Virus record (IMG/VR): IMGVR_UViG_3300029286_003654
Span: 1-26,029 of that record
Reading direction: 5' to 3' (one strand)
Source: a virus
DNA length: 26,029 bases
How positions within the stretch are numbered: position 1 is the first letter of the stretch; each line of letters opens with the position of its first letter. Position numbers and translations under genes: made by a program. The notes beneath the pieces are model-generated. The model saw only the letters and a program-made list of their open reading frames with translations. It ran no database searches and was not told where the DNA came from. Of the stretch, positions 1,261 to 20,766 are shown one piece after another.

Positions 1261-2175
1261 TTATGTTAAACCTTGCAATCGAACCGTACACCTAACGTAT
1301 CGGCCATCACGAAATACACGCTCAAAATCCCGGAATAGGGCGTATAGAATAAAACTCTCCAGAATCTCATCTCCCTCATTATTGCAATCATAAATCGCAG
1401 CTTTACCACAATTAGCCTTAAAGGCTCGATGCACAGCGTCAACTTTATCAAACCGGAGCATCAGAGTCAAATCAATGTCGTCGCCAGAACCTCCTGGAAC
1501 AACCATCGGTAGCGAACTCGACGACTTATTACTGTAATCGACCAACCTCGTAGATAATCCTTTCTGCGTATTCCCGATATCAAAAGTCACTCCTGGCCGC
1601 AAAACTCCACACTTAGCAATCGCTGTAGACACATGAGTTACACGAAAAAGGAGCCGGGAGTTTGGTCCATACCGAGGAAATGCCCAAACGACTGTCGTTT
1701 TCAGAGTGATATCCTCAAAAAAGTACTCCCACCAATCTGCTGAACTGATAGGATTCCGAAGATCAAGCACCTCAGTTTTTATCTCCTCAAGACCAACCAT
1801 ATGAGTCAACTCAACCTCAACGGCATCGAGATTATATAACCCAACATAATCACACCCGGCACCACTCACCTCACCCGAAAACGATTCCAGATACTGGCTC
1901 TGAGTATTGCGCATATTATCAAACATGGCCCACCGATCAGTAGTCCCGATCAGCTCCCATCTACTCGAATCAAGACTTGGTACTTGATCTGTTCCTGCTG
2001 CTACGATTGCCGTCTTACACTTATAAACGTAATGAGGTGTCGTTGCACCATCGTAGACAAGATTCCCTACACTATACGCAGCAGAGACCCAAGCCGATAT
2101 CACAGCACCCAGATAGTAGTTCACCGGTATCGAGGAGCTATTGAGCACCACATCCGGAAGAGTCACAATCTTCAT
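1261..2175 (-). CDS. distal tail / baseplate protein with carbohydrate-binding-like module
   Basis: This 304-residue protein starts within the stop of the tape measure gene (ATGA overlap), so it is translationally coupled and probably sits at the distal end of the tail. Residues about 26-77 resemble the same small sugar-binding-type module as in the fibre: AWVSAAYSVGNLVYDG, HYVYKCKTA, then PSLDSSRWELIG. The remainder is beta-rich with no catalytic motif that I recognise, and there is no signal peptide or membrane segment. Siphovirus tails normally have several tip proteins between tape measure and fibre. Here this is the only one, so it may combine roles. Function is inferred from position. 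Confidence 0.65.
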   Translation of the reverse strand: MKIVTLPDVVLNSSSIPVNYYLGAVISAWVSAAYSVGNLVYDGATTPHYVYKCKTAIVAAGTDQVPSLDSSRWELIGTTDRWAMFDNMRNTQSQYLESFSGEVSGAGCDYVGLYNLDAVEVELTHMVGLEEIKTEVLDLRNPISSADWWEYFFEDITLKTTVVWAFPRYGPNSRLLFRVTHVSTAIAKCGVLRPGVTFDIGNTQKGLSTRLVDYSNKSSSSLPMVVPGGSGDDIDLTLMLRFDKVDAVHRAFKANCGKAAIYDCNNEGDEILESFILYALFRDFERVFRDGRYVRCTVRLQGLT

Positions 2176-9603: not shown

Positions 9604-10548
9604 TTAAAGCCGGACACCAGGCAACACCGCAACGCTCCGCACATTCAGCGCCCGCGAGTCTGTGCGCAACTCTACGAGCTGCTCATAAAAGTTTCCGACC
9701 TTTGTCATCGCATAAACCTTCAAGCCATTCTTTGTTGTCATCATCGAGAAGAACTCCTTGGCGCCAGATCGGAACGCATAGACACTTGAGCAATCCGTAC
9801 TGGTACCCTTCGTCTCTGTCTGCGGGATAATTTCCGACCCATCAAACTTGAACCCTGCATGAACCACAGGCACACCATTAAACGTGTTGATGAGCCTGCC
9901 GTACTTGTCAACTGTCGTGCCACACTCCGCAGCCGCAAACGAGCTAAGCCGAGCCCACACCAAGCTGTTCATAACCAAGCACTGCGCGCCAAACGCCACG
10001 CTCATAATTAATAGCTGCAACGCCTCCTTAAACTTCATTTGGCTCGCCACTGCGGTATCGCTGATACCCGCAAGTACCTGCATACCGTTCGCGCCCATAT
10101 TGGTCAGAGTCTGGCTCGCAGCAAGTGCAGCAACGGTTTTCTTCAGTCCATTAAACTGCACCGGCGTCTGAGTGGAATCGCCAACCACCAAAAACTCATT
10201 AATGTTGCGCCCAAGCGTAAGTCCAAATGATGCCAGTTCACGCTGCATCTCGGAAGGGATGTCGCCACCCTCTTCCTCATAGCCCACATCAAGTCGTATT
10301 GCCTTGCCCAGCGTGGTCAGCGAATAATTGGCATACGAAGGTTCAACCACAAGAGGCGAAGCGTAATCGGAGCCTATGGTACGGAACGTCGCACCGGTGT
10401 TAACATTCGCATCCGTACGCACCTTAGCCGTACCGCCTGGCGAATAAAAAAAATGGACATAATCCAGAAGCGGGGCTGCAAGCCGGATATTGTCAAGTAC
10501 AAGCCGTGAAAGATCATCACTGGAAGAAACCTCATACAGTAAACCCAT
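9604..10548 (-). CDS. major capsid protein
   Basis: This 314-residue protein follows the protease/scaffold gene and precedes gp36, the position of the major head protein (Mu gpT). The sequence has features expected of an HK97-fold capsid: an N-terminal arm (SSDDLSRLVLDNI), a long spine region with KAIRLDVGYEEEGG and LGRNINEFLVVGDS, FNGLKKTV, an A-domain stretch with LVMNSLVWARL, NTFNGVPVVHAG, and a C-terminal GNFYEQLVELRTDSRALNVRS strand region. No ribosome binding site is obvious, only an A-rich leader. It is probably processed or assembled with the upstream protease. Confidence in the capsid role is high and in the exact family moderate. Confidence 0.85.
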   Translation of the reverse strand: MGLLYEVSSSDDLSRLVLDNIRLAAPLLDYVHFFYSPGGTAKVRTDANVNTGATFRTIGSDYASPLVVEPSYANYSLTTLGKAIRLDVGYEEEGGDIPSEMQRELASFGLTLGRNINEFLVVGDSTQTPVQFNGLKKTVAALAASQTLTNMGANGMQVLAGISDTAVASQMKFKEALQLLIMSVAFGAQCLVMNSLVWARLSSFAAAECGTTVDKYGRLINTFNGVPVVHAGFKFDGSEIIPQTETKGTSTDCSSVYAFRSGAKEFFSMMTTKNGLKVYAMTKVGNFYEQLVELRTDSRALNVRSVAVLPGVRL

Positions 10549-19226: not shown

Positions 19227-19676
19227 CTACCGTTCTATCTGCGCACGCATTTGCTCAAGCGCAAACTTGATCCGCCCGACGTGATCCCGCTCGATCCACT
19301 CCGGACTGCCAATATCAAACCGCTTGTACAAAAAGGTGTGGTATGCTGACAAGGCATCACGCCGATTTGTCTGCCTTGTAACATCCATCCACATCGCTTC
19401 AAGCATGCGCAGTTGGCGGCCAGTTGCCATCAACGCCGACCGCCCCTTCAACTCCCGATACGGCTGCCGAAACTGCTGATGCTCTTGGATTCTGTCAACC
19501 ATCTCCTGTAAAACCTTTGCCACAGCATGCCCCTGGGTGATCGTCAACTCCTTACAGCTTTCAACATCATAGCCCCACAACAAAGACCGGTAGTTCTCCT
19601 CCGAGATTCCCGATAATCCCTGCAGCGTCTTGATCCGCCGCACAATCATCGGCGGCAACTCATACTTCACCGTCAT
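19227..19676 (-). CDS. gemA: GemA / Mu gp16-like regulator (DUF1018)
   Basis: This 149-residue protein matches the GemA/gp16 family of transposable phages. In Mu, GemA affects host gene expression and gyrase-dependent DNA supercoiling, although the mechanism is not settled. The signature is MIVRRIKTLQGLSGI, then YRSLLWGYDVESCKELT, and RSALMATGRQLRMLEAMW, followed by a C-terminal helical domain with ALSAYHTFLYKRFDI. The start overlaps the preceding gene stop (ATGA). The family always lies in the early region after the transposition genes, consistent here. Confidence 0.85.
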   Translation of the reverse strand: MTVKYELPPMIVRRIKTLQGLSGISEENYRSLLWGYDVESCKELTITQGHAVAKVLQEMVDRIQEHQQFRQPYRELKGRSALMATGRQLRMLEAMWMDVTRQTNRRDALSAYHTFLYKRFDIGSPEWIERDHVGRIKFALEQMRAQIER

Positions 19677-20098
19677 AGCTCAATGACCTCCAACCCCTCA
19701 AGCTTTTTATACTGGCGGATGAGCACTGAAGCTGTCGGAAAACAGTAGTCGAACGATACTCTCACCTTATCCGGATACTTCTTTTTCAGGCTGTTAACCG
19801 CCGCCAACTCACGCTTGCTTTTCCCGGCCAGTTCCCCTTTTTTAAAAAGAGTGATTGTTTGCGTCCTCTTCCTCCAAACCTTTTCAACAAAGGGGTCGTA
19901 ATGCTTGCTCTCTTTCCATCCATTTGCAGGCTGTATCTTCTCATCGATATAGACGAACAGCTTGTACGAAAAGCCCGACTTTGCTGTGTTCAACCAGCGG
20001 ATAGTAAGTTTCCTTCCGTCAAGGCTGAACGTTGTGCTTAAAAAGAGGCTATTCAATTCTTCCTCAAGAACCTTCCACTTCTCCGCTGAAATTGCCAT
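19673..20098 (-). CDS. hypothetical early protein
   Basis: This protein of about 141 residues lies between the tRNA-like element and gemA. I chose the ATG at 20098. A TTG at 20107 would add three residues. It looks like an alpha/beta soluble protein: an N-terminal helix EKWKVLEEELNSLFLS, strands with RKLTIRWLN and SYKLFVYIDE, then a basic region KVWRKRTQTITLFKKGELAGK and VRVSFDYCFPTASVLIRQYKKL. No catalytic motif is evident. It is coupled by four bases to gemA and may be a nucleic-acid-binding accessory protein judging by its basic centre, but this is speculative. Confidence 0.6.
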   Translation of the reverse strand: MAISAEKWKVLEEELNSLFLSTTFSLDGRKLTIRWLNTAKSGFSYKLFVYIDEKIQPANGWKESKHYDPFVEKVWRKRTQTITLFKKGELAGKSKRELAAVNSLKKKYPDKVRVSFDYCFPTASVLIRQYKKLEGLEVIEL

Positions 20099-20131: not shown

Positions 20132-20199
20132 TACCAGACCGGAAGGAATCGAACCTCCGACGCGCTTATGCCAAACGCGCCACACCCATCAGTCTGGTA
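20132..20199 (-). ncRNA. tRNA-like element lacking one arm
   Basis: On the minus strand, TACCAGACTG pairs with CGGTCTGGTA (ten pairs, one G-U). Inside are a hairpin CGCG-TTTGGCATAAG-CGCG and a perfect T-arm, GGAGG-TTCGATT-CCTTC, with consensus T-loop bases. The inner hairpin resembles a D-arm (loop with GG), so the anticodon arm would be missing. Alternatively it could be read as an anticodon arm with GGC, leaving no D-arm. At 68 nt it is too short for a complete tRNA, and no CCA is encoded. It begins seven bases after the AP2-like gene stop and ends about 33 bases before the next start. Confidence 0.6.
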
Positions 20200-20205
20200 C
20201 AACAA

Positions 20206-20766
20206 TCAGTACTCCTCCTTCAGCTTTTCAACTGTTGATTTCATCCCATACTCGATATCCTCAGACCGCACAGCCCCGTCCAGCACGAGCAGCTCCGCCA
20301 GCGCAATTATAGCGCCAAAAGAAACCGCCAAAGGCACCCCGTTCAACACTTTTGCCTTTCCCCTCTTCTCGTAAAGACCATAATTAATAATCCTCTGAGA
20401 GGAAGAACACACCGCCAAAGCAGCTTCATCTGTCGTCGCGAGTATCTTATCGAGATCCCGATACTTCGGCGGCTTAACCGACCGCTCAAACGGCGTCCCG
20501 TTCGCCTGCTTTGATGCCGACAAGGCGTACTGTTCCGCAGCATGAGCACGGGCTCTTATCGCTTCCCCCTTCGAGTTGCACCACAAGTGAAAAACCTGTT
20601 TTTTCCCGACATGCAAATAAGACCGCCACATCCGTCTTTTCGCGGAATAAGATACCCCAACGACATACTTTGTGTCCGTTAGGTCAATCTCAACGCTCTG
20701 AGCAACCGACGGCATCACCTTCGCGATAAACGTCGTCGCCGCCGGTAACCGCTTCCGCTTACTCAT
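20206..20766 (-). CDS. AP2-like DNA-binding domain protein, early
   Basis: This 186-residue protein overlaps the upstream membrane gene by eight bases. Residues about 33-83 resemble the compact AP2 DNA-binding fold known from phage homing endonucleases and integrases: YVVGVSYSAKRRMWRSYL, then HVGKKQVFHLW and KGEAIRARAHAAEQY, i.e. three strands with Trp/Arg pattern followed by a helix. No HNH motif is seen, so it is probably a DNA-binding regulator rather than a nuclease. The C-terminal part is helical with LAVSFGAIIALAELLVL, possibly a buried helix. The role in the early operon is unknown. Confidence 0.55.
   Translation of the reverse strand: MSKRKRLPAATTFIAKVMPSVAQSVEIDLTDTKYVVGVSYSAKRRMWRSYLHVGKKQVFHLWCNSKGEAIRARAHAAEQYALSASKQANGTPFERSVKPPKYRDLDKILATTDEAALAVCSSSQRIINYGLYEKRGKAKVLNGVPLAVSFGAIIALAELLVLDGAVRSEDIEYGMKSTVEKLKEEY

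Follow-up and report, generated by a model that had tools for sequence, protein, structure and literature searches.

Transfer RNA-Like Element in the Early Operon

The early genes of a Mu-like phage are interrupted by a short RNA element that has the acceptor stem and T-arm of a tRNA, and the question arises of what such an element, which carries no decoding arm, is kept for. The window analysed here is a 26,029-nt virus record (IMG/VR IMGVR_UViG_3300029286_003654), whose minus-strand genes include those of a Mu-type transposase, a TnpB-type ATPase and GemA. The TnpB protein has relatives with 74–76% identity in Chlorobiaceae assemblies (L005–L007) and a relative with 84% identity in another viral contig (L004), so the window derives from a Mu-like phage of green sulfur bacteria (Chlorobiaceae). 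The tRNA-like element is located on the coding strand and fills the gap between an AP2-like gene and a phrog_5671 family gene, after which gemA comes next (Table 1). The placement in the early operon, proposed in the initial annotation, is supported, and the element lies between co-directional early genes. An intrinsic terminator and a promoter were looked for at the element, and neither was found.

The AP2-like gene lies upstream of the slot in all relatives. Its products are 26–50% identical among the slot relatives; Pfam AP2 matches are weak, with the domain detected in three of the 12 family members (best E 0.0019). The protein has no relative in the PDB, and a TBLASTN search against 50,697 annotated phages gave no match, nor did a BLASTN search with the gemA/p144 region against annotated phages.

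Table 1. Features of the tRNA-like element and its neighbouring genes in the window
Feature	Position	Strand	Remarks
Whole tRNA-like element, extended ten-pair stem	20132..20199	(-)	Sequence and RNAfold
Acceptor 5' strand CAGACTG (positions 1-7)	20190..20196	(-)	Stem extended by 20197-20199
Linker ATGGGTGT, 8 nt, single-stranded	20182..20189	(-)	ATSGGTG in L007 and L068; candidate reduced D-arm giving the elbow G-G
Inner hairpin GGCGCG-N11-CGCGTC	20159..20181	(-)	Where the anticodon arm would be
T-arm GGAGG-TTCGATT-CCTTC	20142..20158	(-)	Perfect consensus
Acceptor 3' strand CGGTCTG (positions 66-72)	20135..20141	(-)	Stacks directly on T-stem; G73 = 20134; extension to 20132
Expected RNase P cut, 5' of position 1	20196..20197	(-)	9 nt past upstream stop codon; predicted from the acceptor/T ruler (PMC4919913)
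AP2-like gene, 186 aa	20206..20766	(-)	Upstream; AP2-like DNA-binding domain and conserved C-terminal part
phrog_5671 family gene	19673..20098	(-)	Downstream; 142 codons including stop; ATG at 20098, 35 nt past position 73
GemA (PF06252)	19227..19676	(-)	Next early-operon gene

RNAfold confirmed the fold described in the initial annotation: ten pairs form the outer stem, which encloses a single inner hairpin and a T-arm of 5 bp with a 7-nt loop (−31.2 kcal/mol). The mean of the shuffled sequences was −20.6 kcal/mol (z = −3.7), and one of the 200 shuffles was as stable as the element. The two acceptor strands and the T-arm make up a 12-bp helix, as in tRNA, and three further pairs lengthen it outward. 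This ten-pair stem holds for the window but is not a trait of the family, as the relatives have 7–8 pairs followed by N73–C74, whereas the window has G73–U74. The inner hairpin, previously noted for its GG-containing loop, does fold, but a reading of it as the D-arm is not supported. The GG of its loop is not conserved, the relatives carrying TTTGACAGGG and TTGTGACATGG at that place, and in relatives its stem is swapped for other sequence (TTCCCGG...CCGGGAG). Because the conserved GG sits in the 5' linker (AUGGGUG/AUCGGUG) and not in the hairpin loop, a reduced D-arm is better sought in the linker, and the hairpin occupies the position of an anticodon arm.

A strict motif (7-bp acceptor with no more than two G-U pairs, 5-bp T-stem and GTTCRANNC loop) occurs once in the window, where 0.015 matches are expected, and ten times across 723 kb of Mu-like loci, where 0.1 are expected from shuffled sequence. 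Eight of these ten matches are in the slot, one is a clean element in L052, and one is AT-rich (L058). L052 is a different Mu-like record; at 10139–10341 it has a minimal element of acceptor, hairpin and T-arm (GATCCGG...CCGGATC). Ahead of this lies another stem that may be acceptor-like (GTCACTG...CAGTGGC), and the two perhaps form a tandem pair.

Comparison with tRNA and tmRNA Models

The bacterial tRNA and tmRNA models suggested as a check in the initial annotation did not place the window element in either family. It does not match the tRNA family (RF00005) at the gathering cut-off, and no tmRNA, i.e., a tRNA-like domain with a tag-encoding mRNA part, was found by ARAGORN or Rfam. The acceptor stem and the T-arm with its TTCRA loop are present. 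An anticodon arm with a 7-nt loop is absent: the hairpin has 6 or more bp and an unsuitable loop, and an 8-nt linker follows the acceptor. The element has the contiguous 12-bp acceptor/T stack and the consensus T-loop that are determinants of bacterial RNase P substrates (PMC11143913, PMC4919913). The earlier description as tRNA-like, with acceptor and T-arm but no decoding arm, agrees with both the fold and the relatives. Other Rfam matches at the element (snoRNA, lncRNA) are at chance level.

ARAGORN calls a tRNA-Ala(GGC) at 20134–20209, which needs a different, mismatched acceptor. That the element is this functional tRNA is extremely improbable, although one relative, L072, does hold an intact tRNA-Gln(UUG). 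The acceptor chosen by ARAGORN conflicts with the compensated acceptor described below, the host tRNA-Ala(GGC) is unrelated, Rfam gives no tRNA match at gathering, and relatives of the same clade have no anticodon arm. Decoding by the window element is ruled out by its structure. Among the relatives, L072, L005 and L161 pass RF00005 with 65.8, 33.1 and 31.8 bits, while L004 fails with 24.8 bits.

The Slot in Related Phages

Relatives were traced via the AP2-like gene, transposase, TnpB and GemA in IMG/VR and 98 genomes of the host class. The slot downstream of the AP2-like gene could be read in 15 distinct cases, 13 of which, the window included, contain a tRNA-like element. Such elements, of which none had been known to the initial annotation in Mu-like phages, are in fact common in related phages; in the open-licence literature, none is described for Mu-like or Chlorobiaceae phages. 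An exact DNA pattern for the T-arm and acceptor has no match in IMG/VR, because the stems differ in every relative.

The elements are diverse. L007 (G003) and L068 (G082) share a linker; L004 (= G080) and L090 are tRNA-Leu-like with the middle deleted, and L059 and L161, which also resemble tRNA-Leu, have a D-arm and a long interior. L005 (G001) and L006 (G002) both have the acceptor TCTGTTG/CAACAGA, while their D-stems, T-stems and interiors differ; in these two, a small extra ORF separates the AP2-like gene from the element. The other carriers are L062 (same as L010), L071 (G015), L092 and L072 (G079). The T-loop of L092 is off consensus, and L071, L092 and L062 are imperfect in the acceptor or T-loop.

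The slot of L063 has no element. In L069 (G028), the element has been lost relative to L090, apparently through recombination between two flanking palindromic repeats: in L090 (185–320), the palindromes GTAGGGGCGTAT...TACGCCCCTAC flank the element, whereas the end of L069 has a single copy and no element. Loss in closely related phages had been named as a sign of decay; the element is missing from one close relative, L069, and from the more distant L063, so it is dispensable in some lineages. No element is present in the corresponding gap of L002 and L003, distant p144 relatives/gemA operons from other hosts.

The distance from the upstream stop codon to the element is 7–14 nt in eight of the 13 cases and 33–51 nt in L004, L059 and L071; it is about 12 nt by eye in L062, and L090 is cut off. 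The next start codon follows 9–121 nt beyond position 73. Position 74 is C in 12 of the 13 elements, and position −1 is T in about half. Host tRNA genes encode C74 in nearly all cases, and most are without the full CCA.

Loss of Decoding and Capture of tRNA Genes

The interiors of the elements vary from 6 to ~110 nt and are hypervariable and unalignable. Among the 13 elements, the anticodon arm is intact only in L072 and is lost or replaced in the others. The body of the L072 element and the tRNA-Gln of its own assembly (G079) share 97% identity, whereas acceptor pairs 2–5 and base 73 have been changed. Judging from the sequences, decoding is not the conserved property, and the slot has demonstrably and repeatedly held tRNA genes whose anticodon region was lost or scrambled, while the 7 + 5 bp acceptor/T helix and the T-loop were kept. 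A D-arm or linker bearing G-G is also kept in most elements.

In the L072 element (1401–1472 (-); L077 in G079), the replacement of the acceptor pairs is compensated, which makes charging questionable. L161 (5572–5718) has a ~100-nt interior with a second T-arm-like hairpin (GAGAG-TTCAATT-CTCTC), suggesting a nested capture. As for the window element, a particular host tRNA was rejected as its origin, since its likeness to host tRNAs is confined to the T-arm.

Compensated Changes in the Acceptor/T Helix

Base pairs were counted in the 12-bp acceptor/T helix of ten aligned minihelices; a MAFFT alignment that puts the inner hairpin one column off was not used for these counts. In this helix, 99.2% of cells are paired, compared with 61.8% in shuffles, both partners have changed in ten of the 12 pairs, and all slid registers are far worse. 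The window and L007 differ at 13 of the 24 stem bases without the loss of any of the 12 pairs (P ~2e-5 in simulated random substitution). The corresponding P values for pair retention are 0.005 for L005/L006, 0.002 for L059/L161 and 0.015 for L007/L068. The elements of L004 and L090 differ at two of ~50 positions (~96% identical), their flanking coding DNA being 73–76% identical.

These figures have to be read with the caution that a slot refilled by another tRNA gets its pairing for free, and part of the covariation may reflect replacement rather than selection. L010, at least, is a case of refilling: up to the slot, its flank and that of L006 share 92.5% identity, and a different element follows. 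Clearly co-descended lineages are therefore the stronger evidence. From the slot on, L006 (7402–8112) and L010 (4970–5061) appear to have undergone cassette exchange: their elements are unrelated, and one has the phrog_5671 gene and the other does not.

Compensatory changes in relatives, named beforehand as the test, are abundant, and uncompensated stem changes such as a pseudogene would have are not seen apart from the imperfect L071, L092 and L062. The compensated changes, keeping the acceptor/T helix after decoding was lost, argue against simple decay. The processing site, elbow mimic and captured tRNA offered as separate options in the initial annotation are in part one story, since the relatives show that tRNAs were captured in the slot, lost the anticodon region and kept the acceptor/T helix.

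Possible Role of the Element

We propose, with a probability of roughly one half, that the element is a captured, anticodon-less tRNA that has been domesticated and now marks the early transcript for processing of the RNase P type, in the manner of vertebrate mascRNA; among the options named previously, the cis processing site is the best supported. This reading is favoured because the place and the 12-bp helix are conserved, neither a terminator- nor a promoter-like site was found at the element, C74 is present in 12 of the 13 elements as in host tRNA genes, and bacterial RNase P takes its measure along the acceptor/T stack, starting at the elbow, and accepts acceptor/T hairpins on their own as substrates (PMC11143913, PMC4919913). 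The hosts carry type A RNase P RNA, and the same slot is used in 13 distinct phages and prophages. The conservation of place and helix and the loss of decoding are direct findings, whereas we infer that the RNA is cut, by which enzyme, and with what consequence for expression. The nascent early mRNA would fold the tRNA elbow, and host RNase P would cut 5' of the acceptor stem, in most cases 7–14 nt past the upstream stop codon. A tRNA 3'-maturation enzyme would trim the other side; RNase Z (TIGR02651) has no match in four Chlorobiaceae genomes (G001, G003, G079, G082) and was found in all 14 control genomes. The downstream mRNA would thus be freed from the upstream part, the two halves of the early operon would decay or be translated differently, and the small excised RNA would perhaps be a by-product. 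Several points count against processing. With its extended ten-pair stem and without C74, the window copy is a less than ideal substrate for RNase P and for 3' trimming, and it may be processed less well than its relatives; L063 and L069 have no element; the acceptor or T-loop is imperfect in L071, L092 and L062; RNase Z had no match in the four host genomes; and neither a D-arm nor a long interior would have to be kept if the element served for processing alone.

The elements may instead be neutral relics, the slot being a recombination hot spot for the capture of host or phage tRNAs that then decay, with structure still visible since the captures are recent. Clear captures, such as the tRNA-Gln body in G079 and the tRNA-Leu-like L059, L161, L004 and L090, the exchange between L006 and L010, and the absence of the element from L069 and L063 all fit this explanation. 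Decay would, however, break stems, yet nearly every element retains all pairs of the acceptor/T helix after loss of the anticodon arm, and pairing is held in the co-descended L007/L068, L005/L006 and L004/L090 as well. We regard neutral relics as rather unlikely. An excised, matured and stable RNA acting in trans as a tRNA mimic, which would titrate or recruit a host factor reading only the elbow and acceptor, is unlikely too; candidate targets are RNase P, the CCA-adding enzyme, T-loop modifying enzymes and a tRNA-targeting defence enzyme. The parts kept are those of the elbow (D-like G-G, T-loop and acceptor), with the anticodon dispensable; the prevalent C74 resembles that of host tRNA genes; and the tRNA-Gln acceptor captured in G079 is altered relative to the host copy as if to avoid charging. 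But a single copy lies within an mRNA, and no separate promoter was found for it; the elements differ greatly in identity, size and interior; the neighbouring genes include no conserved partner for defence or modification; and two relatives do without the element. A bolder proposal, for which the chances seem poorer still, is that the Mu-like lineage time and again converts the host tRNAs it captures into anticodon-free 'elbow RNAs', which would mature like tRNAs, act in trans on a host factor that handles or attacks tRNAs, and have an acceptor remade against charging.

A phage family in which tRNAs are drawn into a single operon slot and reduced to acceptor, elbow and T-arm shows how such elements arise, and intermediate stages are visible in the tRNA-Gln with a changed acceptor, the tRNA-Leu with a rebuilt or deleted middle and the minimal 63-nt form. 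RNase P-dependent control of early genes in a transposing phage thereby becomes directly testable.

Comparison with Known Systems

The main known cases of anticodon-less tRNA mimics that direct processing come from vertebrate MALAT1/MENbeta, plant viruses and tmRNA. The tRNA-like domain of tmRNA, an RNase P substrate, likewise consists of an acceptor, a D-like part and a T-arm without an anticodon arm; the window element is far shorter, and the elements inspected have no G3-U70 alanine signal. Cleavage of operon RNAs by RNase P is known, and the host enzyme also cuts phage RNAs, namely the C4 antisense RNA of P1/P7, the M3 phage RNA, T4 tRNA precursors and the gene 32 mRNA (PMC11143913). These are phage transcripts that use host RNase P, as proposed here; however, the phages are unrelated, and the T4 RNAs are true tRNAs or an mRNA. 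C4 and M3 are not known to preserve a canonical T-arm across a family. Integrating elements leave tRNA gene fragments (PMC9897764), which are also partial tRNA sequences in mobile DNA; those are partial copies at integration sites, whereas the element described here has both acceptor strands, which covary, and sits well inside the early operon of a phage that transposes.

The best Rfam match in shape is the vertebrate mascRNA-menRNA (RF01684; MALAT1, MENbeta), to which the window, L007 and L068 score 21.6, 34.9 and 33.3 bits, all below the gathering threshold of 42.5. RNAs of that family are cut by RNase P and RNase Z and receive a CCA end. When the element is aligned to the model, the linker falls on the reduced D-arm and the hairpin on the anticodon stem. 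mascRNA is a processing signal, and the two guanines of its reduced D-arm dock on the T-loop (PMC11693755). Both RNAs have an acceptor, a reduced D-arm with two guanines, a hairpin for the anticodon arm and a consensus T-arm, and both lie within a longer transcript. The phage element differs in lying between coding genes and in that its cleavage is predicted; common descent is implausible, and the resemblance, by analogy, is one of shape only and not of family membership.
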